Of a DNA stretch of 64,000 bases, positions 32,498 to 59,879 are shown in pieces. Source of the DNA: Actinopolymorpha cephalotaxi. Its GTDB lineage: Bacteria > Actinomycetota > Actinomycetes > Propionibacteriales > Actinopolymorphaceae. The translations under genes were made by a program, and so were the position numbers. Positions within the stretch are counted from its first letter, which is position 1; every line of letters begins with the position of its first letter. The stretch lies in contig NZ_JACBZA010000001.1 of NCBI RefSeq assembly GCF_013408535.1, forward strand, positions 2,192,850 through 2,256,849. Reading direction: 5' to 3'. The notes below the pieces were generated by a model, which made no database searches, was not told the origin of the DNA, and was given only the letters and a program-made list of their open reading frames with translations.

Positions 32498-32575
32498 CGG
32501 GTTCTCCCTTACGTTTCCGCGTCCTACGCCGGGATGGGTGGCCGGGGGCGGCAAGGCCACCGGCCACCCGTCGCC

Positions 32576-32821: not shown

Positions 32822-32902
32822 GCCTTGATGCTCCTTCTTCGTGTGGATGCCGCTTTTCAGGTGCCGCGCCCGCGCGGGACGAGGGCGGGGTCGCTGGGTA
32901 CT

Positions 32903-35082: not shown

Positions 35083-35169
35083 GAAATCCACCTTGACGGC
35101 TGAACGGTTCCGAAGGGTGCCCCGGGCAGACGAAAGTTTCGCGAACTTCTCTGTAGGAACCCTACAAAG

Positions 35170-36342: not shown

Positions 36343-36570
36343 CTGCGAAGTGTCCCACGCACCGTGTCCCGGCACCCACGCTCGTGGTGACGGATGGTGA
36401 GCACCGGCCAGGCCGGCAGGGGACACCACGACGAGGTCGTACGCCGAACCAGCCTGACCGGCGGCTTTTGTCCGATCTGCTGAGGTTCTGCTGGTTCGCA
36501 CTCTTTCAAGCGGTTTTCTCGGCCTCGGGCTTGCCCGGCTCGTCCACACGCTGCCCGAAACGCCCGGCGC

Positions 36571-36576
36571 TAGGGT
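36571..36576 (+). promoter_or_regulatory. -10 box of a leaderless promoter
   Basis: TAGGGT starts exactly 12 bases before the GTG at 36583. The region between it and the minus-strand regulator is short, and no Shine-Dalgarno is present. Confidence 0.55.
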
Positions 36577-36582
36577 GAGCGG

Positions 36583-37631
<1,049 letters not shown>

Positions 37632-37638
<7 letters not shown>

Positions 37639-37694
37639 CAGCTGACAGCACCAGGTTGACAGCGCCGGGTTGACAGCGCCGGGTTGACAGCACC
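37632..37694. repeat. Tandem 14-bp repeat starting at the PHP stop codon
   Basis: gggttgacagcgcc and close copies occur at 37653-37666, 37667-37680 and 37681-37694, with a related longer unit at 37632-37652 that includes the TGA stop (37636-37638). As at 12916, each copy carries the stop triplet on. Confidence 0.85.
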
Positions 37695-37699
37695 GGCGC

Positions 37700-37750
37700 C
37701 GACAACGACGAAGGTCCCCGGCTCACCAGCCGGGGACCTTCGTGTTGTCG
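37700..37750. terminator. Long bidirectional hairpin terminator
   Basis: AAGGTCCCCGGCT (37711-37723) and AGCCGGGGACCTT (37728-37740) form a perfect 13-bp stem with a 4-base loop, extended by CGACAAC/GTTGTCG with one bulged base. It ends both the PHP gene and aceE. Confidence 0.85.
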
Positions 37751-37783
37751 GAGCCTTTCGGAGACCGCGGGAGCCGCGAGGCC

Positions 37784-40549: not shown

Positions 40550-40907
40550 GGCGATCCCTTTCTCGGGGGTGTGGGGGTGCTCCCACCAGGTAGTGCCAGG
40601 TAGTGCATCGTCGTCCTGACTCTCATAGTCTCTCGCGGGAGCACAGGAGTCGTCCCCGGTCCCGGTCGTGCCTTTCCGGGGGCCGAACGCCGACACGGGC
40701 CATGGTGGCGGCCCGTGGTCTCGACCCCGAGCCCGCACCGCGGCGTCAGGGCGAAACCGGGAGCCAACCCTACGTCGTCCCACTCGCGGGCGGGTACCAG
40801 TGTCTGGTCTGTTTCCGGACTCGGGCACCATGCCGGAAACCATCGTGACGGTGGGCAGTCACCCCGGGTTGTCCCGTTCGGACCGTTCCCTCCCCAGAAA
40901 GGCCGAT
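40550..40907. other. Divergent intergenic region before aceE and yjbQ
   Basis: No gene is seen in 358 bases. A 9-11-bp tandem copy (ccaggtagtg, twice) lies just upstream of the aceE start at 40580-40605. No palindrome or riboswitch fold stands out; it must carry the aceE promoter. Confidence 0.5.
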
Positions 40908-46247: not shown

Positions 46248-47621
46248 TCAGCCGGTCAGCTCGGTGAGCGTCCGGCGTACGCCGGCCACCAGTTCGGCGT
46301 CGTCGGCCAGTGCCGGGTCGAGGACGGCGAGCACCCGGGGCACGACGTCGTCCACCGGGCCACCGGCCAGGCCGGCGAGTTCCTCGGCGCGCGGGTCGCG
46401 TACGCGCGTCCCGTCCCGCAGGTGGGCCAGCCACCCGGCCAGGGCGACCACCCCGCCCTCGGGGAGCACGCCGTCCGCGCGTTCGCGGGTCAGCACCGGC
46501 AGCACCCGGATCGGCAGCTTCTGCGAGCCGTCCATCGCGATCTGCGCCAGCGCGTGCCGGATGCGCGGGTTGGCGAACCGTTCCAGCAGGTCGGCGCGGT
46601 ACTTCGCGATGTCCGCCGCGTCCAGCGCCAGGTGCCGCGCCGCCGCGTCCCACCAGGCGTCCACCCAGCCCCGGCACACCGGGTCGCCGATCGCCTCCGC
46701 CACGGTCTCGTGGCCCCGGGTCGGACCCGCGTACGCCAGCAGGGAGTGCGCGCCGTTGAGCAACCACAGCTTGCGCTGCTCGAACGGCCGTACGTCGTCG
46801 ACGAACCGCGCGCCCGCGTGCTCCCAGGCGGGCCGACCGGCCGGGAAGTCCCCGGCCAGCACCCACTCGGTGAACGGCTCGGTCACCACCGGCGCCTGAT
46901 CGGAGAACCCGCTCAGGGAGGCGACGACCTCGCGGTCCTCCGGCGTCGTCGCGGGGGTGATCCGGTCGATGGTGGTGGAGACGAACGACACGTTCGCGCG
47001 TACCCACGCGGCGAGGTCCGCATCGACGGCGTCCGCGACCCCGGTGAGCACCCGGGCGATCGTGGCGCCGTTGTCGACCAGGTTGTCGCAGGGTACGACG
47101 GCGAGCGGGCCGGCGTCGGCCGCCCGGCGCGCGGCCAGGCCGGACAGCAGCCGGCCCGGTGCCGTGGACACCGCGGAGTCACCGGCGCGCAGCCGCTCCA
47201 CGTCGCCGGCCAGCCGCGGGTCGGCCAGGTCGGGCGCGCCGTCGGCGGCCCGCAGGTAGCCGGCCTCGGTGATGGTGAGGGTGACCGTGCCGACGGCCGG
47301 GTCGGCGAGCGCACCGTCCCGCAGCTTCGCGTCGGCGCCGTCGTACGCCCCGGACAGGCTGGTGACCAGCTCGGTCCGGTCGCCGTCGCGGTCGCGGACC
47401 AGCAGGTGGTAGAGCCCGTCCTGGTCCGCGAGCGGCCGGGCGGCGTCGGGCCGCCGGCCGGTGAACGCCGCGATGCCGGCCGGCTCGGTCCCGTCGGCGG
47501 TGTTGGCCACGTGGGTGTACCACGCCTGGTGCGCGCGGAAGAACGCGCCGAGGCCGAGGTGCACGACCCGGACCGGAGCCGGGCCGCCGGCACCGGCCTG
47601 CGCCCTCGTCAGCCCCCTCAT
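46248..47621 (-). CDS. uxuB: Mannitol dehydrogenase-family protein, probably fructuronate reductase
   Basis: A 457-residue NAD-dependent polyol dehydrogenase of the long-chain family: HLGLGAFFRAHQ in the Rossmann head, VVPCDNLVDNG in the middle and the catalytic Lys-x4-Asn-x2-His in RKLWLLNGAHSLL. The start is fixed by the ATGA overlap with uxaC. With uxaC directly upstream, the likely reaction is D-fructuronate to D-mannonate (UxuB); tagaturonate reductase or mannitol dehydrogenase are alternatives. The next enzyme, mannonate dehydratase, is not in the window. Confidence 0.82.
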   Translation of the reverse strand: MRGLTRAQAGAGGPAPVRVVHLGLGAFFRAHQAWYTHVANTADGTEPAGIAAFTGRRPDAARPLADQDGLYHLLVRDRDGDRTELVTSLSGAYDGADAKLRDGALADPAVGTVTLTITEAGYLRAADGAPDLADPRLAGDVERLRAGDSAVSTAPGRLLSGLAARRAADAGPLAVVPCDNLVDNGATIARVLTGVADAVDADLAAWVRANVSFVSTTIDRITPATTPEDREVVASLSGFSDQAPVVTEPFTEWVLAGDFPAGRPAWEHAGARFVDDVRPFEQRKLWLLNGAHSLLAYAGPTRGHETVAEAIGDPVCRGWVDAWWDAAARHLALDAADIAKYRADLLERFANPRIRHALAQIAMDGSQKLPIRVLPVLTRERADGVLPEGGVVALAGWLAHLRDGTRVRDPRAEELAGLAGGPVDDVVPRVLAVLDPALADDAELVAGVRRTLTELTG

Positions 47622-49033
47622 GCGACGCGGAAGGTCGAGGCGGGCAGCCGGTACGCGAGGTCGGCGGCGGTGTCGGCCGCCTCGTCCTCGGGCAACCGGT
47701 GCTCGGCGACCAGTCGGGCGAGGTACCCGCAGTCGAGCCGGCGGGCCATGTCGTGGCGTACCGGGATCGAGCAGTAGGCGCGGGTGTCGTCGACGAAGCC
47801 GGCCGTCTTGTGGAAGCCGACCGAGTCGGTGACCGCGTCGCGGAACCTCCGGATGGCGTCCGGGGTGTCGATGAACCACCACGGCGCGCCGACGAACACC
47901 GACGGGTAGAAGCCCGCCAGCGGCGCGATCTCGCGGGAGAACACGTCCTCGTCGACGGTGAACAGCACCATCCGGAAGTTCGGGTGGGTGCCGTACCGCT
48001 GCAGCAGCGGCCGCAGCGACCGGGTGTACTCCGTGGTCATCGGGATGTCGCCGCCCACGTCGCGGCCGTACCGGTCGAAGGTGCCGGTGTGGTGGTCGCG
48101 CAGCACGCCCGGGTGCACCTGCATCACCAGACCGTCCTCGGACGCCATCCGGGCCATCTCGGTGAACATGTGCCGGCGGAACGCGGTGGCCTCCTCCGCC
48201 GTGGCGGCGCCGGTGAGCGCGGCCGCGTAGATGCGGGTCGCCTCGGCCGGCTCCAGCGGCTCGCTGCCCGCGTCGGCGTGGCCGTGGTCGGTCGCGGTGG
48301 CGCCGTTGCGTTTGAAGTACGCCCGCCGCTGCTCCAGCGCGGCGACGTAGCCGGCGTACCCGGTGGTGTCCTCACCGGTCACCTCGCCCAGTCTCGCCAC
48401 CCTCGCGGCCCAGTCCGGCCGGGCGGGCTCGAGGTAGGGGTCGGGACGGAACGTCGGGACCACCCGGCCCTTCCACGTCGCGTCGTCGGCGAGCTGCCGG
48501 TGCGCGGCGAGGTCGTCGGCCGGGTCGTCGGTGGTGGCCAGGACCTCGATCCCGAACCGCTCGTACAGCGCCCGCGGTCGGAACTCCGGCGCGGCGAGCC
48601 GCTCGCTGAGCTGGTCGAAGATCTCGTCGGCGGTCTCGGCGGAGGGCCGCAGGCGCACGCCGAACACGTCCACCAGCTCCGCCTCCAGCCAGTAACGCGA
48701 AGGAGTGCCGCGGAACGCCCACCAGTGCGAGCAGAACGTCCGCCAGATCTCCCGGGGCGAGGCGTCGCCCTTCGGCGCGCCGGGCGGGACGCCGAGGCTG
48801 TCGAACGACACCCCGTGCGCGTGCAGCAGCCGGGTGACGTAGTGGTCGGGTACGACGAGCAGGTTGGCCGGGTCGCCGAACGGCTGGTCCTCGGCAAGGA
48901 TCGCCGGGTCGACGTGGCCGTGCGGGGAGATGATCGGCAGCCCGGCCACCTCGTCGTACAGCCGGCGGGCGATGGACCGCACGCTCGGGTCGGTCGGGAA
49001 CAGCCGGTCCGGGTGGAGTTCGATGTCGGTCAT
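47618..49033 (-). CDS. uxaC: Glucuronate isomerase
   Basis: A 471-residue enzyme converting D-glucuronate to D-fructuronate (and galacturonate to tagaturonate). Typical segments are ISPHGHVDPAILAEDQPF (metal site), CSHWWAFRGTPSRYWLEAEL and VDDTRAYCSIPVRHDMARR; the amidohydrolase-related TIM barrel is complete. The start has AAGAAGGGACC upstream. It is coupled to uxuB and follows an epimerase gene after 72 bases. Its presence fixes the locus to hexuronate catabolism. Confidence 0.95.
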   Translation of the reverse strand: MTDIELHPDRLFPTDPSVRSIARRLYDEVAGLPIISPHGHVDPAILAEDQPFGDPANLLVVPDHYVTRLLHAHGVSFDSLGVPPGAPKGDASPREIWRTFCSHWWAFRGTPSRYWLEAELVDVFGVRLRPSAETADEIFDQLSERLAAPEFRPRALYERFGIEVLATTDDPADDLAAHRQLADDATWKGRVVPTFRPDPYLEPARPDWAARVARLGEVTGEDTTGYAGYVAALEQRRAYFKRNGATATDHGHADAGSEPLEPAEATRIYAAALTGAATAEEATAFRRHMFTEMARMASEDGLVMQVHPGVLRDHHTGTFDRYGRDVGGDIPMTTEYTRSLRPLLQRYGTHPNFRMVLFTVDEDVFSREIAPLAGFYPSVFVGAPWWFIDTPDAIRRFRDAVTDSVGFHKTAGFVDDTRAYCSIPVRHDMARRLDCGYLARLVAEHRLPEDEAADTAADLAYRLPASTFRVA

Positions 49034-49105
49034 CCGGTCCCTTCTTCGTGGTTCGCCCGGGGTGGGGGCTTCGGGGGCTACTGGTGCTTCAAGTGTTCGG
49101 TGGGG

Positions 49106-49933
49106 TCAGCTCGCGGCCGGGACGAGCTTGCGCATGTACTCCGCGTACTGCGGGATCGCGACCTCCGGCTCCTCGATCTCGGGGTGCCAGGCCTTCTCCC
49201 ACTCGAAGCTCAGGTAGCCGGTGTAGCCCTCCCGGTCCAGCAGCCCGACGAACTCACCGATCGGCATGGTGCCCTCGCCGGTGAGCCGGAAGTCGAAGTC
49301 GGTGGGGGAGTAGGCCCCGGAGTCCTTCAGGTGCACGTGCCGGATCCGCTCGCCCAGCGCCTGCCAGGTCTGCTCCAGCGGCTCGCCGTTGCGGTAGGAG
49401 TGCAGGACGTCCCACAGGATGCCGAGGTCGTCGTTCGGTGCGTACGACAGGAGCTCGCCGACCTGGGCGGAGGTGCAGAAGCTGTCGTGGGTCTCCAGTA
49501 CCGCGGTGACGCCCTCCGCGCGGGTGGCGGCGGCCGCCTCGGCGAGCCCCTCGGCGATCCGTTTGGTGGTCTCCGTAAGCTCCGGGCCCTCGTCGGGCAC
49601 GGTGCCGCCGAAGACCCGGATGTACTTCGAGCCGAGCCCGGCGGCGATCCGGGCGTAGGTGCGGGCCGACTCCAGCTGGCGGGCGCGTTCGTCCTTGTCG
49701 GGCGAGGTGAACCGGACACTCGTGTCCAGGCAGGCGAGCTCCACCCCGGCCTGCTCGAACCTCGCCCTCGTGCGGGGCAGGCCCTCGGCGGAGAACTCCT
49801 CCAGCTCGTGCAGGCCGACCTCGCCGCGCAGGAAGCGGAGTTCGACACCGTCGTAGCCGTTGCCGGTCGCGGTGGAGAGAACCTGGTCCAGGGTGTAGTT
49901 CGGACAACCGAGCGTGCTGAAGCTGAGTTTCAT
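49106..49933 (-). CDS. Sugar phosphate isomerase/epimerase-type TIM-barrel protein
   Basis: A 275-residue xylose-isomerase-like barrel: KLSFSTLGCPNYTLDQVL and YDGVELRFLRGE at the N terminus, AVLETHDSFCTS, and a metal-site Asp/His in LGILWDVLHSYRNG and HVHLKDSGAYSPTD. It resembles hydroxypyruvate isomerase/tagatose epimerase relatives. ATG at 49933 fits GGAAGG upstream. It is the second gene of the lacI-epimerase-uxaC-uxuB run. Confidence 0.87.
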   Translation of the reverse strand: MKLSFSTLGCPNYTLDQVLSTATGNGYDGVELRFLRGEVGLHELEEFSAEGLPRTRARFEQAGVELACLDTSVRFTSPDKDERARQLESARTYARIAAGLGSKYIRVFGGTVPDEGPELTETTKRIAEGLAEAAAATRAEGVTAVLETHDSFCTSAQVGELLSYAPNDDLGILWDVLHSYRNGEPLEQTWQALGERIRHVHLKDSGAYSPTDFDFRLTGEGTMPIGEFVGLLDREGYTGYLSFEWEKAWHPEIEEPEVAIPQYAEYMRKLVPAAS

Positions 49934-50059
49934 CACGTACACCTTCCGGTGGTGGGTGTGGTCGTCGAGCTGGATGCCTTGCTGCGTTGCCTGCCGGGAC
50001 TGCTTGCCGGGTTGGTCTTTGGGGTTGGTCTTTGGGGTTGGCCTGCCAAATGTGCGGGG

Positions 50060-51181
50060 TCAGCCGGTGGCGCCCACCGCCCTGGCGGTACGCCGGTCGG
50101 TGGCCGCCCGCTGGCGCGGGGACCGGCCGCGTGCGCGACCCGGTGCCGGGCCGGTGCTCTCCCGGATCGTCAGCCTGGTGGGGAGTACGACGTCCTCGCC
50201 GGCCCCGGCGCCCTCGGCGCCCTCTCCGCCCTCCGCGCCCTGGGCGTCACCCGGGCGCGGCCGGTCGGACGCGAGCAGGCCCAGCAGGAGGTCGACCGCG
50301 GACCGGCCGGCGGACTCGATCGGCGCGGCCAGCGTCGTCAGGGACGGGTGGCAGAAGTCGGCGCCGAAGATGTCGTCGCAGCCGACCACGCTGATCTGCC
50401 CGGGTACGTCGATGCCCCTGTCGCGCAGCCGGCGGAGCACCCCGATGGCGAGCAGGTCGTTGAACGTCACCACGGCCGTCACGTCGTCCAGCACCGCGGA
50501 GTCCGCGGCGGCCATCCCGGCGTCGACCGTGGGGGCGAGCGGGCCGATCCGGACCACCTCGAGGTCGCGGTGACGGGCCACCGCCTGCAGCGTTCGCCAC
50601 CGGCGGGCGTCGGACCAGGAGGCGCGCGGGCCGGCGAGGTAGGCGATCCGCCGGTGGCCGAGCGAGGCAAGGTGCTCGGCGGCCTGCCGGGTGCCGTGGG
50701 CGCTGTCGATCAGGACGCCCGGCAGCGGCCGGACCCGGCGGTTGACCACCACGACCCGGGTCTTCGCGTGGATCTCCCGCAGCCGCTCGTCCGAAGCCCG
50801 GGAGGAGGCCAGCACGAACCCGTCCACGGCGCCGGTGAGGCGCTCGACCACGGTCGTCTCCTGCTGGCTGGTCTCCTCGGTGTCGGCCAGCACCAGCGTG
50901 TAGCCGGCCGCCGTCGCGGCGCGTTCGGCGCCGCGGATCAGGTCGAGGAAGAACGGGTTGGTGATGTCGGGGACCAGCAGCCCGAGGGTGCGGGTGCGCC
51001 CCGACGGCAGCGCCCGGGCGATGGCGTTGGGCCGGTAGCCCATCTCCGCGGCGGTCGCGAGGATCCGGTCCCGGGTGGTCGGGCTGACCCGCTCGGGCCG
51101 GGTGAAGGCCCGCGACACCGTGGAGGCGTTCACCCCGCAGCGGGCGGCCACGTCGTGGATCGTCGGCGTCCGGTCACTCAC
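50060..51181 (-). CDS. LacI-family transcriptional repressor
   Basis: A 373-residue regulator. The LacI HTH and hinge are at residues 7-55 (TIHDVAARCGVNASTVSRAF), followed by a periplasmic-binding-like ligand domain (GLLVPDITNPFFLDLIRGAE) and an Arg-rich tail. It probably binds a hexuronate or derived sugar. The GTG has GGAGGGA upstream. A perfect GGCAACCGGTTGCC operator lies in the divergent promoter just beyond the start, so it likely controls its own operon and the plus-strand one. Confidence 0.92.
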   Translation of the reverse strand: MSDRTPTIHDVAARCGVNASTVSRAFTRPERVSPTTRDRILATAAEMGYRPNAIARALPSGRTRTLGLLVPDITNPFFLDLIRGAERAATAAGYTLVLADTEETSQQETTVVERLTGAVDGFVLASSRASDERLREIHAKTRVVVVNRRVRPLPGVLIDSAHGTRQAAEHLASLGHRRIAYLAGPRASWSDARRWRTLQAVARHRDLEVVRIGPLAPTVDAGMAAADSAVLDDVTAVVTFNDLLAIGVLRRLRDRGIDVPGQISVVGCDDIFGADFCHPSLTTLAAPIESAGRSAVDLLLGLLASDRPRPGDAQGAEGGEGAEGAGAGEDVVLPTRLTIRESTGPAPGRARGRSPRQRAATDRRTARAVGATG

Positions 51182-51241
51182 CAGGTCGCTCCCTCCACCT
51201 CGCGACGGCTGCCGTTGTCGGACGGCCTAGTCTCACCCCTC

Positions 51242-51284
51242 TTGACAAAGTTTGGCAACCGGTTGCCATAGTTGCCACAACCGG
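51242..51284. promoter_or_regulatory. Divergent promoter with LacI-type operators
   Basis: TTGACA (51242-51247) and CATAGT (51267-51272) form a plus-strand promoter with a 19-base spacer. The spacer contains the perfect 14-bp palindrome GGCAACCGGTTGCC (51254-51267), and a second dyad, CCGGTTG (51259-51265) with CAACCGG (51278-51284), overlaps it. The CG-centred palindrome is the LacI/GalR pattern. Confidence 0.75.
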
Positions 51285-51392
51285 TCGTGTGCCGTGCCGC
51301 AAAGCGTGGGCGCCCGCTCACCGGCTGTCCGTTCACCCGACCGGCAGGTACGACCCGCACCGCCCGACCAGACCGAGGAGCACGTGCCAACG

Positions 51393-52220
51393 ATGTGGAC
51401 CCTCTCCGGATTCGCCGACGAGATCGACCCCGACCCGCACGTGCAGTTCCGCACGCTGAACGAGCTCGGCATCCGGTATGTCGAGTTCCGCAGCGCCTGG
51501 GGCACCAACGTCCTCGACCTCGACGACGACCAGGTCGGTGAGCTGAAGCGGATCCTCGCGCAGTACGGCATCGGGCTGTCCGCGGTCGGTTCGCCGATCG
51601 GCAAGGTCGGCATCCACGACGACTTCGACGAGCACCTCGCGCGGTTCGACCGGGCGCTGTGGGTGGCGAAGGAGCTGCAGGCGCCGTACATCCGAATCTT
51701 CTCGTTCTGGATGCCCGACGGCGAGGACCCCGCCAAGCACCGCGACGAGGTGCTGCGGCGGATGTCGGCGCTGGCGGACCGGGTGGGCGACCAGGACGTC
51801 ATCCTCGCCCACGAGAACGAACGCAAGATCTACGGCGACGTCCCGTCCCGCTGCCTGGACATCGTGGAGTCGGTCGGCTCGGACAAGCTGCGCCTGGTCT
51901 GGGACCCGGCCAACTTCGTCCTGTGCGACGTGGCGCCGTTCACCGACGGCTTCGCCGACCTGCGGCCCTACATCGACTACCTGCAGATCAAGGACGCGGT
52001 GGCGGCCGAGGGCCGGGTGGTCCCCGCCGGCGAGGGCGACGGGCAGATCCCGGAGACGGTCCGCGCGCTGAAGGCGGACGGATTCGACAGTTACTTCTCG
52101 ATGGAGCCGCACCTCGCCTACATGGGTGAGTCCGGTGGGTTCTCCGGCCCCGAGCTGTTCGGCACGGCGACCCGGGCGTTCACCGGGATCCTCGACGCCG
52201 AGGGCATCGCGTACCACTAG
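51393..52220 (+). CDS. Sugar phosphate isomerase/epimerase-type TIM-barrel protein
   Basis: A 275-residue xylose-isomerase-like barrel: TLSGFADEIDPDPHVQFRTL at the start, YVEFRSAWGTNVLD, HENERKIYGDVPSRC and the metal-site Asp/His in LVWDPANFVLCDV. The first ATG lies 12 bases after GAGGAG; a GTG at 51384 is closer and equally possible. It is the first gene of the plus-strand operon under the LacI-type operator, followed after 78 bases by the Gfo/Idh/MocA gene. Confidence 0.87.
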   Translation: MWTLSGFADEIDPDPHVQFRTLNELGIRYVEFRSAWGTNVLDLDDDQVGELKRILAQYGIGLSAVGSPIGKVGIHDDFDEHLARFDRALWVAKELQAPYIRIFSFWMPDGEDPAKHRDEVLRRMSALADRVGDQDVILAHENERKIYGDVPSRCLDIVESVGSDKLRLVWDPANFVLCDVAPFTDGFADLRPYIDYLQIKDAVAAEGRVVPAGEGDGQIPETVRALKADGFDSYFSMEPHLAYMGESGGFSGPELFGTATRAFTGILDAEGIAYH

Positions 52221-52298
52221 ATCGACCAGTCCCCAGCCAGACCAGCCAGACACCAGACCCAGCAGAGCGCGACACGAAGCTCGACAGAAGGGGCACAG

Positions 52299-53393
52299 AT
52301 GCGATTCGCAGTGATCGGCGCCGGCGTGATCGGCCGCACCCACGCCCAGACCATCCAGTCGCTGCAGCCGAGGGCCGAGTTGGCCGTGGTGGCCGACGTC
52401 GTGCCCGAGCGTGCGCAGGAGCTGGCCAGCCAGCACGGTGTCGACGCGGCGAACTCCATCGAGGAGGTGCTGGGCCGTTCCGACGTGGACGTGGTGACGA
52501 TCGCCACCCCGAGCGGCCTGCACGCCGACGGGGCGGTGGCGGCCCTGGACGCCGGCAAGCACGTCATCATCGAGAAGCCGCTGGACATCACCCTGGACGC
52601 CGCCAAGCGGGTCCTGGAGGCGGAGAAGCGGTCGGATCGGACCGCGATGGTGGTGAGCCAGCACAGGTACGACCCGGCCAGCCAGGTCGTGCACCAGGCC
52701 GTACGGCAGGGGAAGTTCGGCCGGATCACCTCCGGCAACGCGATCATGTCGTGGTGGCGCAGCCAGAGCTACTACGACTCCGGCGACTGGCGCGGCACCT
52801 GGGAGCTGGACGGCGGCGGCGCCCTGATGAACCAGGGCATCCACACCATCGACCTGATGACGTGGTTCCTCGGTGAGCCGGTCGAGGTGTACGCCTGGGC
52901 GGACTGCCTCGCGCACGAGCGGATCGAGGTCGAGGACACCGCGGTCGCCACCGTGCGGTTCGCCAGCGGCGCGCTCGGTGTCGTGCACGGCACGACGGCG
53001 GCCTACCCGGGCCTCACCACCAAGGTGCACGTGCACGGTGACCAGGGTTCGGCGGTCATCGACGCCACCAAGCTCACCTACTACCACTCCGCCGGTGACA
53101 GCGACGAGGACTACGCCTACGGCGCCGGCTCCTCGGCCAACCAGGCGGAGGCCGCGCTGGCCGCCGCCGGGTTCGCCCCCGCCGCGGAGAAGAAGGACGA
53201 GGAGCCCACGGTGGCGGGGCTGACGGCGACGTCGCACACCACCCAGTTCGTGGACTTCCTCGACGCGCTGGACGACAAGCGCCCGCCGCTGGTCACCGTC
53301 GCCGAGGGCACCAAGACGCTCGCCCTGATCCGCGGGATCTACGAGTCCGCGCGGACGAAGGGGCCGATCCGGATCGAGGAGCTGACCCGATGA
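52299..53393 (+). CDS. Gfo/Idh/MocA-family oxidoreductase
   Basis: A 364-residue dehydrogenase: FAVIGAGVIGRTHAQTI in the Rossmann head and VIIEKPLDITLDA with the EKP motif at about 90, then GALMNQGIHTIDLMTWFLGE, the conserved His-Asp segment. A disordered-looking insert (about 270-305) is rich in Ala and Glu. Its ATG has GAAGGGG upstream. The stop overlaps the next start (ATGA). Members paired with TIM-barrel epimerases often work on 3-keto sugars. Confidence 0.92.
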   Translation: MRFAVIGAGVIGRTHAQTIQSLQPRAELAVVADVVPERAQELASQHGVDAANSIEEVLGRSDVDVVTIATPSGLHADGAVAALDAGKHVIIEKPLDITLDAAKRVLEAEKRSDRTAMVVSQHRYDPASQVVHQAVRQGKFGRITSGNAIMSWWRSQSYYDSGDWRGTWELDGGGALMNQGIHTIDLMTWFLGEPVEVYAWADCLAHERIEVEDTAVATVRFASGALGVVHGTTAAYPGLTTKVHVHGDQGSAVIDATKLTYYHSAGDSDEDYAYGAGSSANQAEAALAAAGFAPAAEKKDEEPTVAGLTATSHTTQFVDFLDALDDKRPPLVTVAEGTKTLALIRGIYESARTKGPIRIEELTR

Positions 53394-54250
53394 GCGCAGC
53401 CGGTTCGTTCAAGTTCGCCGTCTTCACCGCGAGCCTGCCCGAGTGGACTCCGGAGGAGGCGGTCGGCAAGCTCGCCGAGCAGGGCTGGGACGGGGTCGAG
53501 TGGCGGATCGTCGACCAGCAGCCGCCGGCGGGCGCCTCGAGCTTCTGGGTCGGCAACAGGTGCACCTGGCCGCTGTCGACGTTCACCGAGGACGTACCCC
53601 GGATCAGGGAGATCACCGAGAAGGCCGGCCTAGGCATCCCGTCGCTCGGCGCGTACGCCCGCTGTGACGAGATCGAGGACGTCGAACGCCTGATGCGCGG
53701 CGCGGCGGAGCTCGGAGTCAGGCAGATGCGGGTGCCGGTCGGCAAGCCCGGGCCGGAGGGCTACAACGCGGCGTTCGCCCAACGGCGCAAGGAGTATCGC
53801 CGGGTCGCCGAACTCGCCGAGCAGTACGGCGTGAAGGCGCTGATCGAGCTGCACCACCAGTCGCTGACGTCCAGCGCCTCGTCGGCGGCACGCTTCGTGG
53901 AGGGCTTCGACCCACGCCACGTCGGCGTCATCCACGACATCGGCAACATGCTCCAGGAGGGGTACGAGTACGACCCGTGGAGCCTGGAGATCCTCGGCGA
54001 GCACCTGGCGCACGTACACGTGAAGAACGCCGCGCCGGTGGCCGTCCCGGTCGAGGGCGCGGACCGTACGGACTGGAAGTGGGGCTGGGCGCCGATGCGG
54101 CACGGTGTCGCCAACCTGCCCAAACTCTTCGCGGCACTGCGCGAGCACGGCTACTCCGGCTGGGTGTCGGTGGAGGACTTCTCCACCGAGGTCCCGCTGG
54201 AGGAGCGGGTACGCGACAATCTGGCGTACCTGAAGGAGATCGCCGGCTGA
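53390..54250 (+). CDS. Sugar phosphate isomerase/epimerase-type TIM-barrel protein
   Basis: A 286-residue xylose-isomerase-like barrel: FAVFTASLPEWTPEEAV at the start, GLGIPSLGAYARCDEIED, ALIELHHQSLT with the Glu, GVIHDIGNMLQEGYEYD and VHVKNAAPVAVPVEG with the metal-site residues. Its start overlaps the oxidoreductase stop (ATGA), so the two are translationally coupled and probably act in sequence. It is the third barrel protein of the locus. Confidence 0.88.
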   Translation: MSAAGSFKFAVFTASLPEWTPEEAVGKLAEQGWDGVEWRIVDQQPPAGASSFWVGNRCTWPLSTFTEDVPRIREITEKAGLGIPSLGAYARCDEIEDVERLMRGAAELGVRQMRVPVGKPGPEGYNAAFAQRRKEYRRVAELAEQYGVKALIELHHQSLTSSASSAARFVEGFDPRHVGVIHDIGNMLQEGYEYDPWSLEILGEHLAHVHVKNAAPVAVPVEGADRTDWKWGWAPMRHGVANLPKLFAALREHGYSGWVSVEDFSTEVPLEERVRDNLAYLKEIAG

Positions 54251-54260
54251 CGCCGGTGTG

Positions 54261-54292
54261 CTCCGGGCAGAGGCCGACGCCGCTGCCCGGAG
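54261..54292 (+). promoter_or_regulatory. Intercistronic hairpin before larA
   Basis: CTCCGGGCAG (54261-54270) and CTGCCCGGAG (54283-54292) form a perfect 10-bp stem with a 12-base loop, 11 bases past the epimerase stop. It could be an attenuator, a 3' end or an mRNA-stability element. Confidence 0.5.
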
Positions 54293-54346
54293 CCGCCGGG
54301 CAGCGGTGGGACCGAACGCAGGGCCTTAACGCAGGGGAGTTTTCAC

Positions 54347-55642
54347 GTGAGCGCTGACCTCATCGGCGGACCGGGCGGCACAGACGCGCCGGGAGGGACG
54401 GACGCGCCGAGCAGCACCGTCCCGGCCGAGCAGGCCGCGGCGTTCGTCGCCGAGCGCCTTGCCGACGTTCCGCTGGAGGGGCGCAACCTGTGCGTGGTCG
54501 TGCCCGACTCCACCCGTAGTTGCCCGCTGCCGCTGCTGCTCGGCGCCGTACACCGGGCCGTGCACGGCCGGGTCGCCCACCTGACCGTGCTGGTCGCGCT
54601 GGGCACGCACCCGGCGATGCCGGAGGAGGCGCTGGCCGCCCACCTCGGCTACCGGCCCGGTGAGCTGGAGGCCACCTATCCGGGCACGACCGTCGTCAAC
54701 CACGAGTGGTGGATCCCGGAGGCGCTGGTCTCCCTCGGTGACATCCCGGCGGCCGAGGTGGCGGAGGTGACCGAGGGCCGGTTCGAGGAGCCGGTGACAG
54801 TACGCATCAACCGGCACGTCGTCGACTCCGACGTGGTGCTCGTCCTCGGGCCGGTGTTCCCGCACGAGGTGGTCGGCTTCTCCGGCGGCAACAAGTACTT
54901 CTTCCCCGGCGTGGCCGGCCGGGAGATCATCGACCTGTCGCACTGGCTAGGCGCGCTGATCAGCAACGTCGAGATCATCGGTATGCCGGGCGTGACGCCG
55001 GTGCGCGCGCTGATCGACCGGGCCGCCGTCCGGATCCCGGCGGAGCGGCTGTGCCTCGCGGTGGTGGTCGCGTCCGGTACGAAGGACCTGCACGCGCTGG
55101 CGTTCGGCACGCCGGAGGAGGCGTGGGCGGCCGCGGCGGAGGTGTCCGCGCAGACGCACGTGCGCTACCTCGACCGGCCGGTGCGCCGGGTGCTGTCCCT
55201 GGTGTCGCCGCGCTACGACGAGCTGTGGACCGCGTCCAAGGGCATGTACAAGGTCGAGCCGGTGGTCGCCGACGGCGGACAGGTGGTGCTGTACGCGCCG
55301 CACGTGCACGAGGTCAGCCGTACCCACGGCACGCTGATCGAGAAGGTCGGCTACCACTGCCGCGACTACTTCACCGGCCAGTGGGACCGGTTCGCCGACG
55401 TGCCGCGCTCGGTGCTCGCGCACTCCACCCACGTCCGCGGGGCGGGACGGTACGACGCCGAGCACGGCGAGCGGTGCCGGATCACGGTGACGCTCGCCAC
55501 CGGCCTGGACGAGCAGCGTTCCCGGGCGCTGAACCTCGACTATCTCGACCCGGCCGCGGTGGACGCGGAGGAGTGGGCCCGCGACCCGGAGACGCTGGTG
55601 GTCCCGAACGCGGGCGAGGTGTTGTTCCGGTTGCGATCGTGA
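54347..55642 (+). CDS. larA: LarA-family nickel-pincer enzyme (hydroxy-acid racemase/epimerase)
   Basis: A 431-residue protein of the lactate racemase family (DUF2088). The residues known in Lactobacillus plantarum LarA can be placed one by one: the Asp/Arg pair in PDSTR (D54, R57), the catalytic His in GTHP (H88), PHEVVGFSGGNK with the second His (H173) and the cofactor-bearing Lys (K183), and the nickel-binding His in DLSHW (H199). H173-K183-H199 spacing equals 174-184-200 in LarA. It should racemise or epimerise an alpha-hydroxy acid, using nickel pincer nucleotide made by LarB/C/E (not seen here). Substrate unknown; the neighbours favour a sugar acid. The N terminus has a duplicated GTDAP unit. 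Confidence 0.88.
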   Translation: MSADLIGGPGGTDAPGGTDAPSSTVPAEQAAAFVAERLADVPLEGRNLCVVVPDSTRSCPLPLLLGAVHRAVHGRVAHLTVLVALGTHPAMPEEALAAHLGYRPGELEATYPGTTVVNHEWWIPEALVSLGDIPAAEVAEVTEGRFEEPVTVRINRHVVDSDVVLVLGPVFPHEVVGFSGGNKYFFPGVAGREIIDLSHWLGALISNVEIIGMPGVTPVRALIDRAAVRIPAERLCLAVVVASGTKDLHALAFGTPEEAWAAAAEVSAQTHVRYLDRPVRRVLSLVSPRYDELWTASKGMYKVEPVVADGGQVVLYAPHVHEVSRTHGTLIEKVGYHCRDYFTGQWDRFADVPRSVLAHSTHVRGAGRYDAEHGERCRITVTLATGLDEQRSRALNLDYLDPAAVDAEEWARDPETLVVPNAGEVLFRLRS

Positions 55643-55670
55643 CGGGCCCGACTGGCTTGAGGGGACGGCG

Positions 55671-56975
55671 ATGACTTCCACCGAGAGTGATGTCGGCAGC
55701 GGTACGGACCTTCCGGCCGGTCGGCTGGCGGTGCCGGAGGCGGAGCTGTCCGTGCCCGGCGGCCTGCCCGACCCGCTGGTATGCGCGGACGGCACGCCTG
55801 TGCGTACGCCGGCGGACTGGTGGGAGCGCCGCCGGCCCGAGCTGCTCGCGGCGTTCGAGGAGCACGTCTACGGCCGTACGCCGAACGGCGCGGTCGAGGC
55901 CGGCGCGCAGGTGCTCGCCGAGGGGCCCGCGCTGGACGGCCGGGCCACTCGGGTGGAGACCCGGCTGACGTTCCGCCGCCCCGCCGCCGATGTACCGGAT
56001 TCCGAAGTCCCCGCCGCGGATGCCGCGGATGCCGTGGCGGTGACCGTGCTGACGTACCTCCCGGCGGCCGCGTCGGCGACCTCGCCCGCTCCGGTGTTCC
56101 TGGCGCTGAACTTCCGCGGCAACGACGTGGTGGAGAACGGCTCGGCCAAGGATTCCGACCCGGTGCAGCACCCGTGGCCGCTGGCGGAACTGGTCGACCG
56201 CGGCTACGGCGTGGCCACCGCGTGCTACCAGGACATCGACCCCGACGTGGACGACTTCGGCAACGGCGTACACCCGCTCTTCTACGCCTCCGGGCAGACT
56301 CCTGGGCAGACTCCTGGGCAGACCAGGCCCGGCGAGCACGAGTGGGGTGCGCTCGGCGCCTGGGCCTGGGGGCTGTCCCGCATCCTCGACCACCTGCGCG
56401 CCGACCGGCGCGTCGACGCCGGCCGGGTGATCGTCGCCGGTCACTCCCGGCTCGGCAAGGCCGCGATCTGGGCCGCCGCGTGCGACGAACGGTTCGCGAT
56501 GGCGGTCTCGAACAACTCCGGCTGCGGCGGTGCGGCGCTGTCGCGGCGACGGGTCGGGGAGACCGTCGAGGCGATCACCAGCAGGTTCCCGCACTGGTTC
56601 TGCCCCGCGTTCGCCGGCTACGCCGGGCGGGAGGAGGCGCTGCCGGTCGACCAGCACCAGCTCCTCGCCCTGGTCGCCCCGCGTCCGGCGTACGTCGCCA
56701 GCGCGGAGGAGGACACCTGGGCCGACCCGGCAGGCGAGTTCCTCGGCGCGAAGTACGCCTCCCCGGTCTACGAACTCCTCGGCGTGGAAGGGCTCGCCGC
56801 CACCGAGCCGCCGTCGGCGGACCGCCCCGTCGTACCCAGCCGGCTCGGCTACCACATCCGTCCCGGCGGCCACGCGATGACCGACGGCGACTGGGCGCGG
56901 TTCGCCGACGCGGCGGACCGGCACCTCGGAGGGTTCCCGGAGGACACGGACCGGTCCGGACCCGCCGGCGGCTGA
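55671..56975 (+). CDS. CE15-type glucuronoyl esterase-like alpha/beta hydrolase
   Basis: A 434-residue hydrolase. The catalytic Ser is S259 in VIVAGHSRLGKAAIWAAA, and the family-typical AMAVSNNSGCGG and FPHWFCPAF follow, as in bacterial CE15 enzymes that cleave methyl or lignin esters of 4-O-methyl-glucuronic acid. DQHQLLALVAPRPAYVASAE is also conserved. CE15 enzymes are normally exported; no signal peptide is visible, so this one may work inside the cell. A GQTPGQTPGQT repeat lies in a loop near residue 210. It is the last gene of the plus-strand operon. Confidence 0.82.
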   Translation: MTSTESDVGSGTDLPAGRLAVPEAELSVPGGLPDPLVCADGTPVRTPADWWERRRPELLAAFEEHVYGRTPNGAVEAGAQVLAEGPALDGRATRVETRLTFRRPAADVPDSEVPAADAADAVAVTVLTYLPAAASATSPAPVFLALNFRGNDVVENGSAKDSDPVQHPWPLAELVDRGYGVATACYQDIDPDVDDFGNGVHPLFYASGQTPGQTPGQTRPGEHEWGALGAWAWGLSRILDHLRADRRVDAGRVIVAGHSRLGKAAIWAAACDERFAMAVSNNSGCGGAALSRRRVGETVEAITSRFPHWFCPAFAGYAGREEALPVDQHQLLALVAPRPAYVASAEEDTWADPAGEFLGAKYASPVYELLGVEGLAATEPPSADRPVVPSRLGYHIRPGGHAMTDGDWARFADAADRHLGGFPEDTDRSGPAGG

Positions 56976-56990: not shown

Positions 56991-57824
56991 GTGGTGACGC
57001 TCGCGCAGGTGGTGGAGGTCCTCGACGGGTTGTACGACCCCCGCTGGGCCGCCGACTGGGACGCTGTGGGGCTGGTCTGCGGTGATCCCGACGCGGAGGT
57101 ACGCCGGATCCTGTTCGCCGTCGACCCGGTGGCCGAGGTGGCCCGGGAGGCGCTGGACTGGCCGGCCGACCTGATCGTCACCCACCACCCCCTCTTCCTG
57201 CGCGGCGTGCACGGCGTGCCGGCGACGACGCCGAAGGGCCGGCTGGTGCACTCGCTGATCCGCGCCGGCACCGCGCTGCACGTCTGCCACACCAACGCCG
57301 ACGCCGCCGACCCCGGGGTGTCCGACGCCCTGGCCGGCGCGCTGGGCCTCACCGACCTGCGACCGCTCGACCCGCGCCCGGACACCCCGTGGCTCGGCGT
57401 CGGCCGGGTCGGCGTCCTGCCCACGCCCGAGCCGCTGGCGGCGTTCGGCCGCCGGGTGGCCGGCGCGCTGCCGCCCACCGCGCACGGCGTACGCGTCGCC
57501 GGTGACCCGGAGCGGACCGTGGCCACGGTCGCGGTCTGCGGTGGTGCGGGCGACTCCTACCTCGACACGGTGCGGACCCTCGGCGTGGACGCCTACGTCA
57601 CCGCCGACCTGCGCCACCACCCGGCCTCGGAGGCCGCCGAGCATCCCGGCGCGCCTGCTCTGCTGGACGTCGCCCACTGGGCCAGCGAGTGGCTCTGGCT
57701 GGACGACGCCGCCGACCGGCTCCGCGGAGTGCTCGCCGAGCGGGGCACTACGGTGGAGACCCGCGTCTCGACGCTTTGCACGGACCCGTGGGCGAGCCAC
57801 GCCGACCAGGGAGGGACCCTCTGA
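56991..57824 (+). CDS. Nif3-like dinuclear metal centre protein
   Basis: A 277-residue protein of the Nif3/YqfO family. Metal-binding His are in LIVTHHPLFLRG (residues about 62-73) and HVCHTNADAADPG, and further conserved parts are DLRHHPASEAAE and ALLDVAHWASEW. Function is debated (GTP cyclohydrolase I-like, metal chaperone). The order nif3-zinc ribbon-RNase HI/CobC matches the mycobacterial Rv2230c-Rv2229c-Rv2228c cluster. The stop overlaps the next gene. Confidence 0.92.
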   Translation: MVTLAQVVEVLDGLYDPRWAADWDAVGLVCGDPDAEVRRILFAVDPVAEVAREALDWPADLIVTHHPLFLRGVHGVPATTPKGRLVHSLIRAGTALHVCHTNADAADPGVSDALAGALGLTDLRPLDPRPDTPWLGVGRVGVLPTPEPLAAFGRRVAGALPPTAHGVRVAGDPERTVATVAVCGGAGDSYLDTVRTLGVDAYVTADLRHHPASEAAEHPGAPALLDVAHWASEWLWLDDAADRLRGVLAERGTTVETRVSTLCTDPWASHADQGGTL

Positions 57825-58564
57825 ACGCCGACCCGTTCATCCAGATGCGGCTGCTCGACGTCCAGGCGCTGGACCTGCGGCTCGACCAGCTTGCCCACCG
57901 CCGCCGGACGGTTCCCGAGGTCGCCGAGGGCGAACGCCTGCGGGCCGAGCGTGCCAAGCTCACCTCCGAGCTGGCGACCGCCCAGGCGCAGGTGAGCGAC
58001 CTCACCCGCGAGCAGCGCAAGGCCGAGTCCGACGTGGAGCAGGTCCGCAACCGGCGGGCACGCGACGAGCAGCGGCTGCAGTCCGGCCAGGTCGGCTCGG
58101 CCCGCGACCTGGAGAGCCTCCAGCACGAGATCGAGTCGCTGCAGCGGCGCCAGTCCGACCTCGAGGACGTCGAGCTCGACGTGATGGAACGCCTCGAGGC
58201 CGCCACCGCCCACGAGCAGCAGCTGACCGCCCGGGAGACCGAGCTGGGGACGAAGCTGGCCGAGGTCGACGAGGCCCGCGACCGCGCGTACGCCTCGATC
58301 GACGCCGAGGCCGAGCAGGTGCGCCGCGAGCGCACCGACACCGCGGCCGGGGTGTCCGACGATCTGCTGAAGCTGTACGAGAAGCGCCGTACGCAGCACG
58401 GCGGTGTCGGCGCCGCGGCGTTGCGGCAGCGCCGGTGCGAGGGCTGCCGGATGGAGCTGGACGCGCGCTACCTCGGCCAGATCGCGGCGAAGCCCGACGA
58501 CGCCGTACTGAGTTGCGAGGAGTGCGGCCGGATCCTGATCCGCACGCTGGAGTCCGGTGTCTGA
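57821..58564 (+). CDS. C4-type zinc-ribbon coiled-coil protein
   Basis: A 247-residue protein. A long coiled coil covers about residues 10-180 (many E/R/Q heptads), followed by a zinc ribbon with C-x2-C in RRCEGCRME and a second C-x2-C in LSCEECGRI. The best start is CTG at 57821: it gives the family-typical NADP head, lies five bases after AGGGAGGGA, and overlaps the nif3 TGA (CTGA). A GTG at 57788 or the ATG at 57845 are alternatives. Such proteins are thought to bind nucleic acid; the role is unknown. Confidence 0.85.
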   Translation: MNADPFIQMRLLDVQALDLRLDQLAHRRRTVPEVAEGERLRAERAKLTSELATAQAQVSDLTREQRKAESDVEQVRNRRARDEQRLQSGQVGSARDLESLQHEIESLQRRQSDLEDVELDVMERLEAATAHEQQLTARETELGTKLAEVDEARDRAYASIDAEAEQVRRERTDTAAGVSDDLLKLYEKRRTQHGGVGAAALRQRRCEGCRMELDARYLGQIAAKPDDAVLSCEECGRILIRTLESGV

Positions 58565-59879
58565 CCGGCTGTTCGAGCACTCGTCCGGCGGAGTTTCCGG
58601 AGTTTCCGGAGTTTCCGGTGGTTCGGCGGGTTCAGGCAGGCGGCTGGTCGTCGAGGCGGACGGCGGCTCGCGCGGCAACCCCGGCCGGGCGGCGTACGGC
58701 GCGGTGGTCCGCGACGCGGAGTCCGGCGACGTGGTCGCCCGGGCGGCTGAGCGGATCGGCACCGCGACCAACAACGTCGCGGAGTACAACGGCCTGATCG
58801 CCGGGCTGAAGCTGGTCCGCGAACTCGACCCGGACGCGGCCGTGGAGATCCGGATGGACAGCAAGCTGGTCATCGAGCAGATGGCCGGCCGCTGGAAGGT
58901 CAAGCACGCCGACATGCGCCGGCTCGCCGAGCAGGCCCGCGCGCTGGTGCCGGCGAACCCCACCTGGACGTGGGTGCCGCGCGAACGCAACAAGACCGCC
59001 GACGCCCTGCTGAATGCCGTACTCGACGGTGGACCGCCGGTCTGGGAGGTCGGCGCCTCGTCAGCGGGAGCGGCCGACCCGACGGCCGACAGCTCCGCGC
59101 CGGCAGACGACTCCGCGGCAGTACCGGAATCCGTGGCAGAACTGGACGTCGCGGCAATACCTGAATCCGTGGCAGAGCAGGGATCCGTGGCAGCGGAGGA
59201 TTCCGCGCCGGCCCGCGGCTGGGGCGGCGATGCCGGCAGCGCCACCACGCTGTTGCTGTTGCGGCACGGCGAGACCGAACACTCCCAGGCCAAGCGCTTC
59301 AGCGGGTCCGGCGGAGCCGACGTTCCTCTCACCGAACGCGGCCGCGCCCAGGCCGTCGCGGCCGCACGGTCGTTGGCCGACCGGCTCGGTGTCGCCGCTG
59401 TGGTGAGCTCGCCGTTGCGGCGGACGCGCGAGACCGCCGACGTGGTCGCGAACGCACTCGGCCTGCCCGTCGAGGTGGAGCCCGGCCTGGCCGAGACCGC
59501 GTTCGGCGAGTGGGACGGTCACACCTTCGCCGAGGTCGGGCAGCGCTGGCCGGCCGAACTCTCAGCCTGGCTGGCGGACACCTCCGTGGCGCCGCCGGGT
59601 GGCGAGTCGTTCGAGCAGGTGCTCACCCGGGTGCGCGCGGCCCGGGACCGGCTGATCCGTACGTACGGCGACAAGACCGTCGTGGTGGTCACCCACGTGA
59701 CGCCGATCAAGCTGCTCGCCTGCCTGGCACTCGACGTGCCGATCCGCGCGGCGTACCGGATGGAACTCCCGCCGGCCGCGCTCACGGAGGTGCGGTGGTT
59801 CGCCGACGGCGCCGCGTCGCTGCGGTCGTTCGGCGTGCCGGTGAGCGAGCCCGGAATGGGCGAACCGCTCCACGACTAG
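58557..59879 (+). CDS. Bifunctional RNase HI / acid phosphatase (CobC-like)
   Basis: A 440-residue fusion. Residues 28-160 are RNase H type I with the acidic site in VEADGGSRGNPG, NVAEYNGLI (E), IRMDSKLVIEQ (D) and ERNKTADALL (D). Residues 235-430 are a histidine phosphatase: LLRHGETEHSQ (RHG) and VVTHVTPIKLL (H), like alpha-ribazole phosphatase CobC. The linker (about 165-230) is Ala/Glu/Ser-rich with repeated ESVAE units. This is the M. tuberculosis Rv2228c architecture. A GVS triple repeat (9 bp x3) lies at the N terminus. GTG start overlapping the zinc-ribbon stop by eight bases. Confidence 0.93.
   Translation: MSDRLFEHSSGGVSGVSGVSGGSAGSGRRLVVEADGGSRGNPGRAAYGAVVRDAESGDVVARAAERIGTATNNVAEYNGLIAGLKLVRELDPDAAVEIRMDSKLVIEQMAGRWKVKHADMRRLAEQARALVPANPTWTWVPRERNKTADALLNAVLDGGPPVWEVGASSAGAADPTADSSAPADDSAAVPESVAELDVAAIPESVAEQGSVAAEDSAPARGWGGDAGSATTLLLLRHGETEHSQAKRFSGSGGADVPLTERGRAQAVAAARSLADRLGVAAVVSSPLRRTRETADVVANALGLPVEVEPGLAETAFGEWDGHTFAEVGQRWPAELSAWLADTSVAPPGGESFEQVLTRVRAARDRLIRTYGDKTVVVVTHVTPIKLLACLALDVPIRAAYRMELPPAALTEVRWFADGAASLRSFGVPVSEPGMGEPLHD

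Follow-up and report, generated by a model that had tools for sequence, protein, structure and literature searches.

What a LarA-type enzyme, a 2-hydroxyacid epimerase built around a nickel-pincer nucleotide (NPN), does among genes for hexuronate breakdown is the question raised by a divergent nine-gene locus of Actinopolymorpha cephalotaxi. The locus lies in a 64,000-nucleotide stretch (the window) of the 6.86 Mb chromosome and has two arms, lacI-epiA-uxaC-uxuB and, facing away from it, epiB-gfo-epiC-larA followed by a CE15 glucuronoyl esterase gene (Table 1). The names epiA, epiB and epiC are used here for three xylose-isomerase-like TIM barrels and gfo for a Gfo/Idh/MocA dehydrogenase. All nine genes that a sequence-only reading of this DNA had named are present, intact and in the order it gave, as judged from the open reading frames and from Pfam and NCBIfam scans. 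The complete set recurs in three Actinopolymorpha loci (L004-L006; in L006 CE15 is shifted by some 3 kb) and partial versions are spread across the Actinomycetota. Given this recurrence, the gene order exceeds chance, and the conservation of neighbours in relatives, on which the sequence-only reading had staked its case, is observed.

On balance we hold it to be somewhat probable that the locus is a two-layer cytoplasmic glucuronate regulon under its local LacI repressor, with LarA acting after UxuB as a D-mannonate to D-gluconate epimerase and the plus arm acting upstream. In the upstream layer CE15 would de-esterify glucuronoyl conjugates after their import, the Gfo/Idh enzyme would oxidise the uronoside at C3, the TIM barrels would split off the aglycone by elimination and add water to the resulting glycal, and re-reduction would yield free D-glucuronate, by analogy with the levoglucosan chemistry of LgdA/B1/B2/C. 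This layer probably frees the uronate from conjugates ahead of UxaC. UxaC would then form D-fructuronate, UxuB would reduce it to D-mannonate, and LarA, charged with its nickel-pincer cofactor by LarB, LarC and LarE encoded elsewhere in the genome, would invert C2 to give D-gluconate. From there, in relatives, a kinase resembling gluconokinase would act together with 6-phosphogluconate dehydrogenase (gnd) to carry the carbon on to ribulose 5-phosphate, so that neither UxuA nor the 2-keto-3-deoxygluconate (KDG) branch is used. LarA is placed after UxuB because D-mannonate fits its 2-hydroxy-acid chemistry, because larA alternates with uxuA, because kinase and gnd genes neighbour larA in relatives, and because a plus arm without larA exists in a genome of the same family, G015.

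The UxaC-UxuB core of the minus arm appears well supported. The reductase is called UxuB by context, as a probable fructuronate reductase; its best named models, which have cut-offs of 600 and 603, score about 234 bits (PRK15037, 234.4 against 603). Its reading frame extends to 47882, and the ATG at 47621, which overlaps uxaC, is the likely start.

In LarA the equivalents of D72, R75, H108, H174, K184, H200 and K298, residues of NPN binding or catalysis, vary in none of the 81 sequences (the window and 80 related loci); the residue numbers were obtained by counting positions in the alignment with 2yjg. The hexonate-epimerase signature, E174 and V175 in the loop and W294 in alpha-11, is likewise invariant in all 81. 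In the available part of the published account, an E-V/S loop with a tryptophan in alpha-11 is the signature of the hexonate-epimerase groups 18-20 (PMC7583248). By these residues the window LarA is of hexonate type, though it stands outside the NCBIfam family NPN_18_hexonate, and its predicted activity is that of a D-mannonate/D-gluconate 2-epimerase. Among the matches listed, the nearest named locus is that of A. rutila, with a LarA 96% identical. The nearest solved relative, only moderately alike (E 2.8e-65), is 4nar, which was deposited as 'putative uronate isomerase' and which we take to be the Thermotoga hexonate epimerase GntE. The sequence-only reading had made its case depend on lar maturation genes in the genome, and larB, larC and larE are all encoded with scores above their cut-offs (LarB 260.9 bits against 175; LarE 294.9 against 150; LarC1/LarC2 198.7/141.5 against 90/50). 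The same genome encodes two more LarA proteins, at L125:7239-9029 (1.73 Mb) and L126:7242-9083 (4.34 Mb); the former passes the NCBIfam LarAH14/15/16 cut-off (927.1 against 740 bits) and the latter passes none.

The association of LarA with hexuronate breakdown is borne out by its conserved neighbourhood and by a survey of 293 genomes of the order, 92 of which carry larA; uxaC is found in 91 of these. Three genomes with matches at E about 1e-21 to 1e-24 (G159, G165 and G175) were excluded from the larA set before counting, and broken or fragmentary matches were retained (larA of G079 and G163; uxaC of G023, G100 and G261). Among the 118 genomes with uxaC, 87 have larA only, 16 a strong uxuA match only, four have both and 11 neither, where 'strong' denotes E <= 2.6e-80 (24 genomes) and the remaining 18 uxuA matches are termed moderate. 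With the moderate matches included the corresponding numbers are 73, 19, 18 and eight. Five genera (g8, g9, g11, g20 and g24) contain species with larA or uxuA and none with both. Thus, larA largely alternates with strong uxuA matches among the uxaC genomes. In G079, the sole larA genome lacking a uxaC match, larA is broken by internal stop codons, as though the gene were decaying after the loss of uxaC.

Neighbourhoods were compared in the best 80 of at least 413 confirmed larA loci, with neighbours counted by tblastn at hand-set thresholds and genes in the loci called by a simple GC-frame script. The counts are lower bounds, 61 of the 80 loci exceeding 20 kb and the others having shorter flanks. 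The most frequent neighbours were uxuB (48 loci) and uxaC (46, in 28 of which it lies less than 2 kb from larA), followed by lacI (41), larC (30), larB (27) and larE (26), a GH2 beta-glucuronidase (17), an FGGY gluconokinase-like kinase (13), gnd (11) and a GPH transporter (9). Two genomes, G001 and G115, hold uxaC-uxuB-gntK-gfo-gfo-larA on one strand. A transporter binding protein, epiB, gfo, a TIM barrel, larA, lacI, uxaC and uxuB stand together in six loci of Actinoplanes type, and three further loci of this type have the same set minus one gene. In L145 and L146 two Gfo/Idh-like genes lie between the gluconokinase-like gene and larA, within the uxaC operon. The larA-uxaC pair crosses phyla: in the cyanobacterial loci L081 and L082, where the LarA is 51% identical, larA is preceded on the same strand by a uxaC homologue (45% identity) whose start is some 2.4-2.7 kb away, and a LacI-type gene (32-33%) lies further upstream. 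The idea that the GH2 beta-glucuronidase is replaced by epiB and gfo was found weak, with epiB in one of the 17 GH2 loci and in 20 of the 63 others (p 0.03, a value that carries no phylogenetic correction).

The plus arm can be separated from larA. In G015 the genes run ce15-epiC-gfo-epiB and then lacI-uxaC-uxuB, with the operator present, epiC being directly followed by a shorter CE15 gene, and no larA was found in that genome at E <= 1e-20. Matches to epiB at E <= 1e-60 occur in 32 of the 293 genomes; 31 of these have uxaC, which lies within 20 kb of epiB in 15, and two of the 15 are without larA. A gfo homologue accompanies epiB in 21 of 21 epiB loci, within 500 bp in 20 (the gfo alignment omits some short matches). 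On the strength of the larA-free locus and of the co-occurrence of epiB and uxaC, epiB, gfo and a barrel probably feed uxaC while LarA works at the other end of the pathway.

The make-up of the arm is that of 3-keto-glycoside (redox) deglycosylation modules, in which a Gfo/Idh dehydrogenase adjoins xylose-isomerase-like barrels. The relatives of gfo in the PDB include 8tdi, 'Glucuronide-3-dehydrogenase' (E 5.8e-30), and better matches exist. The 8tdi enzyme reportedly belongs to an alternative pathway for glycans described in Nature in 2024. The start of epiC overlaps the end of gfo by 4 bp, and epiC is predicted to encode a 3-keto-uronoside eliminase or hydratase. By sequence, a putative eliminase-type metal site (E/H-D-H-E) with an E-x-H motif, in which the His stands at +2 of the first ligand, is seen in epiA and epiC and not in epiB, with ligands assigned by eye from the alignments (that of epiA omits L005 on grounds of coverage). 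The TIM-barrel 3-keto-glycoside eliminases AtOGE/PuCGE are described, in the text available, with a metal site and a catalytic His (His132/His134 in AtOGE; PMC10628242). The nearest solved relatives of epiB in a profile search are 5tnv and AsbF, and AsbF is presumably a dehydratase.

CE15 of the window matches 21 PDB sequences at E <= 0.001 (best 5.4e-98), with homology over most of the protein, and the Ser motif GHSRLGK and the His motif of the family are conserved in L004-L006. At the position of the Glu in 6grw the window has Asn, as in 8q6s, and Asp/Glu is found at the 'AEEDTW' site; these two positions are read as candidate places for the acid of the catalytic triad. A secretion signal is usual for the family. 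No hydrophobic N-terminus was seen by eye when the proteins of the window, L004-L006 and G015 were read from the earliest start that follows the preceding stop. Since no signal peptide is evident, CE15 is predicted to be cytoplasmic and should act on imported esters. It was rejected as a general component of such loci, being near the locus in only seven of the 31 genomes with a CE15 match (six Actinopolymorpha and G015).

The palindromic operators that had been claimed between the two arms are indeed there, as one perfect and one imperfect palindrome. The perfect one, O1, is the only such site in the whole genome at up to one mismatch. In a three-mismatch scan of the window O1 alone matches, and with a chance expectation of 0.38 that scan is by itself not significant. 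The block of O1 and the second palindrome is kept across L004-L006 although most of the intergenic sequence differs, and the operator is also found in the related genomes G004 and G015, in the latter with one core base changed. The core GGCAANNNNTTGCC has 42 matches in 29 of the 80 larA loci, compared with 0, 0, 1 and 0 for four control palindromes, and 38 of the 42 precede, at a distance of no more than 450 bp, a match to uxaC, lacI, larA, GH2, epiB or a transporter gene. LacI homologues of at least 38% identity occur in 41 of the 80 loci. We take the core as a predicted, conserved hexuronate operator of the LacI family. In Kribbella-type genomes (genus g5, in which ten of the 38 with uxaC were sampled) the solitary larA (L170-L176), far from uxaC, retains the GGCAA-N4-TTGCC operator upstream in seven of ten at up to one mismatch and in four exactly.

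Table 1. Features of the divergent hexuronate locus, in positions of the window
Feature	Positions	Strand	Description
uxuB	46248-47621	minus	mannitol-dehydrogenase-family reductase, probable fructuronate reductase (to D-mannonate); Pfam Mannitol_dh and Mannitol_dh_C
uxaC	47618-49033	minus	glucuronate (uronate) isomerase; NCBIfam PRK02925 567.6 bits (above cut-off 387); Pfam UxaC 1.2e-79
epiA	49106-49933	minus	xylose-isomerase-like TIM barrel, PF01261; E147-x-H149, D175, H201, E244
lacI	50060-51181	minus	LacI-family repressor, predicted regulator of both arms; Pfam LacI and Peripla_BP_3
TTGACA	51242-51247	plus	possible -35 of plus arm, by consensus match only; also in L004-L006
operator O1	51253-51268		perfect 16-bp palindrome TGGCAACCGGTTGCCA, between lacI and epiB
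second palindrome	51276-51289		imperfect, CACAACCGGTCGTG; identical in L004-L006
epiB	51393-52220	plus	xylose-isomerase-like TIM barrel, PF01261; E141, D171, Q198 (replaces His), E238
gfo	52299-53393	plus	Gfo/Idh/MocA dehydrogenase (Pfam), predicted uronoside 3-dehydrogenase
epiC	53390-54250	plus	xylose-isomerase-like TIM barrel, PF01261; E153-x-H155, D183, H210, E262
larA	54347-55642	plus	nickel-pincer (NPN) 2-hydroxyacid epimerase; Pfam Lar_N 79.8 bits (cut-off 23.3)
CE15 glucuronoyl esterase	55671-56975	plus	PDB CE15 relatives; predicted cytoplasmic

The sequence-only reading had known of no described pathway that joins these genes, which proved too strong a statement, since a Thermotoga hexuronate regulon with GntE and an actinobacterial uronic-acid context of GntE1 are in print (PMC7583248, PMC3750489, PMC6978723). 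In the accessible portions of these papers, the mannonate/gluconate epimerase GntE of Thermotoga was proposed in a hexuronate regulon and its enzyme activity was shown later. Like the LarA proposed here, GntE is an NPN D-mannonate/D-gluconate epimerase in a regulon with uronate genes, gluconokinase and gnd. The Thermotoga regulator is the GntR-family UxaR, whereas that of the present locus is a LacI, and the part of the description available names no Gfo/Idh, TIM-barrel or CE15 module. GntE1 of Corynebacterium glutamicum (LarAH group 19), an actinobacterial LarA homologue, is reported to epimerise gluconate at C2 and to be encoded among uronic-acid genes; as far as the available text goes its native substrate is left open, with aldarates suggested (PMC7583248).

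Other known systems resemble parts of the locus. The levoglucosan route of Bacillus smithii (LgdA/B1/B2/C) is described, in the text at hand, as proceeding by C3 oxidation, elimination, hydration and reduction instead of hydrolysis (PMC7676230), and it shares with the plus arm a Gfo/Idh/MocA-type enzyme and two barrels annotated as sugar-phosphate isomerases. Here, unlike in that route, the arm has a single Gfo/Idh enzyme, the locus contains three barrels and is linked to uxaC, and gfo falls below the cut-off of the NCBIfam model LevoglcsnDh (116.7 of 650 bits). The P2B11 glucuronide-3-dehydrogenase (8tdi), likewise of the Gfo/Idh/MocA type, takes its name from the oxidation of glucuronides at C3, and it is not the best PDB match of gfo. 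With the UxaC-UxuB-UxuA route of the E. coli type the UxaC and UxuB steps are common, while LarA here occupies the place expected for UxuA and a UxuA-subfamily gene lies elsewhere. The CE15 esterases OtCE15A, MZ0003 and 8q6s are clear homologues, from which the window CE15 differs by having no evident signal peptide and by its operon with cytoplasmic enzymes. In the titles and abstract openings searched, among which subscription papers are poorly covered, no description was found of an actinobacterial larA/uxuA alternation or of a link of LarA to a Gfo/Idh-TIM barrel-CE15 module. The link between LarA and hexuronates is already in print; it is new that larA alternates with uxuA and is coupled to what is probably a module for redox deglycosylation.

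Several observations weigh against a pathway in which LarA follows UxuB and the plus arm precedes UxaC. Once moderate matches count, 18 of the 91 genomes with larA and uxaC carry some UxuA match, and the genera g14 and g26 contain genomes with larA and uxuA together. The genomes cannot count as independent: genus g5 supplies 37 of the 87 with larA only, and kinship inflates the p-values. The best NCBIfam model of the window LarA, NPN_18_hexonate, reaches 161.5 bits with a cut-off of 500. The hexonate signature is not exclusive, since LarAH10, outside the GntE type, also epimerises gluconate according to the portion of the report available (PMC11770544). The FGGY kinase of the relatives scores 338-358 bits against a gluconokinase cut-off of 648.55, gluconokinase still being its best model, and Thermotoga, as far as its published description was accessible, has both GntE and UxuA, with uxuA kept in the same regulon. 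Because of the last two points our confidence in this pathway, and in its extension to the whole phylum considered below, is slightly lowered.

Further points of this kind come from A. cephalotaxi itself. The genome encodes a UxuA-subfamily protein elsewhere (NF003027, 220.4 bits, above the cut-off of 191; TIGR00695, 155.5 bits, below that of 199.55), as do, with moderate scores, all eight sampled genomes of the same family. Because this protein is present LarA is not a simple replacement of UxuA here, and strict replacement in A. cephalotaxi is not claimed; mannonate may leave the pathway in Actinopolymorpha by LarA, UxuA or both. No thermoresistant gluconokinase (TIGR01313) is found in the genome. 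It has seven FGGY matches, of which four were scanned with profiles, and when the three best loci and three stretches were compared with the relatives' kinase no protein came close, identity being at most 32%. A gnd gene is encoded (717.5 bits).

As to the plus arm, 27 of the 46 larA loci with uxaC hold no plus-arm gene, and in an alignment of 22 sequences epiB has neither the His ligand nor the E-x-H motif. Moreover, gfo is closer to the uncharacterised 3q2k, and slightly closer to glucose-fructose oxidoreductase, than to 8tdi, and epiC is only about 22% identical to the barrel in the same position in Actinoplanes, for which reason the two are not claimed to be orthologues. The operator precedes uxaC, within about 1 kb, in none of the ten sampled g5 genomes, and a trans regulon in these Kribbella-type genomes is therefore unsupported, the operator standing upstream of larA and never of uxaC.

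The alternatives to be weighed concern the barrels, the plus arm as a whole and LarA. It is unlikely, and still the most credible of these, that epiA (perhaps with other barrels) is a ketouronate 3-epimerase that interconverts tagaturonate and fructuronate, by which D-galacturonate would enter via UxaC and the locus would serve both uronates. Its place in the lacI-epiA-uxaC-uxuB arm and its complete E-D-H-E metal site agree with this, as do a weak best NCBIfam match to fructoselysine 3-epimerase (44.9 of 305 bits) and profile matches to Art22, IolI, UlaE and ketose 3-epimerases. D-tagatose 3-epimerases carry E-x-x-N, unlike epiA with its E-x-H. The latter motif is that of the 3-keto-glycoside eliminases in the available description (PMC10628242), no cut-off is passed, and epiA is found in only four of the 88 loci examined (L004-L006 among the 80 larA loci, and G004 among eight further loci). 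Overall, epiA may be an eliminase/hydratase or a ketouronate 3-epimerase.

That the plus arm is an inositol-like or unrelated sugar route, which merely shares its regulator with the hexuronate genes, seems rather improbable. The best NCBIfam model of gfo is inositol 2-dehydrogenase (173.8 bits, cut-off 355), and the barrel beside larA in Actinoplanes weakly matches IolE (81.5 of 290 bits). Against this stands the company that epiB keeps, with uxaC in 31 of its 32 genomes, within 20 kb in 15, two of them lacking larA.

We attach still less probability to a LarA that epimerises an aldaric or other uronate-derived acid, such as D-glucarate/D-mannarate, with uxaC and uxuB only co-regulated. An aldarate role is suggested for group 19 in the text available, where the KM of GntE1 for mannonate is high, 120 mM (PMC7583248), and the distant score on the best NCBIfam model (161.5 of 500 bits) also counts in its favour. 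Such a role would predict neither uxaC in 91 of 92 larA genomes nor the alternation with uxuA; the gluconokinase-like kinase and gnd near larA in relatives speak against it too, and no aldarate dehydratase is among the 18 annotated neighbour clusters (two of them matchless), no dedicated search having been made.

The version of the sequence-only reading, which has LarA act on a methylated or glycosidic sugar acid and invert an alpha-hydroxy centre in it so that the product enters the uxaC/uxuB route, deserves hardly any credit and was set aside: larA is indeed a plus-arm gene, flanked by epiC and CE15, and six Actinoplanes-type loci likewise place it directly after plus-arm genes, but UxaC requires an aldehyde uronate whereas LarA enzymes act on 2-hydroxy acids (PMC7583248, in the part available), larA alternates with the downstream enzyme gene uxuA and has kinase and gnd genes nearby, G015 has its plus arm without larA, and 27 of the 46 larA loci with uxaC are without the plus arm.

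With LarA placed after UxuB, one may extend the proposal to the Actinomycetota at large. We offer as tentative, and as having somewhat less than an even chance of being right, that LarA would replace mannonate dehydratase as the exit from UxaC/UxuB throughout the phylum and send the carbon to 6-phosphogluconate, and that in the Actinopolymorpha and Actinoplanes types this exit would be wired to an intracellular, non-hydrolytic release of glucuronate by oxidation, elimination and hydration, joined in Actinopolymorpha and G015 by a cytoplasmic CE15, in place of the beta-glucuronidase of other relatives. A nickel-pincer group of uncertain substrate would thereby gain a testable one, mannonate, and hosts free of uxuA are predicted to depend on LarA. 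The proposal would also give a physiological rationale for LarB/C/E in many soil actinobacteria, and it suggests that the redox route for cleaving glycosidic bonds, which was recognised recently, has a branch for uronates.

Further genes were noted around the locus. Directly 3' of CE15, at 56991-59879, lie genes for a Nif3-like protein, a CdsZ-like zinc-ribbon protein (below cut-off) and an RNase H/acid phosphatase fusion, which are apparently housekeeping genes outside the locus. On the minus strand at 31262-40843 a beta-ketoacyl synthase, an acyltransferase, a PucR-type regulator and a pyruvate-dehydrogenase-E1-like gene are clustered.

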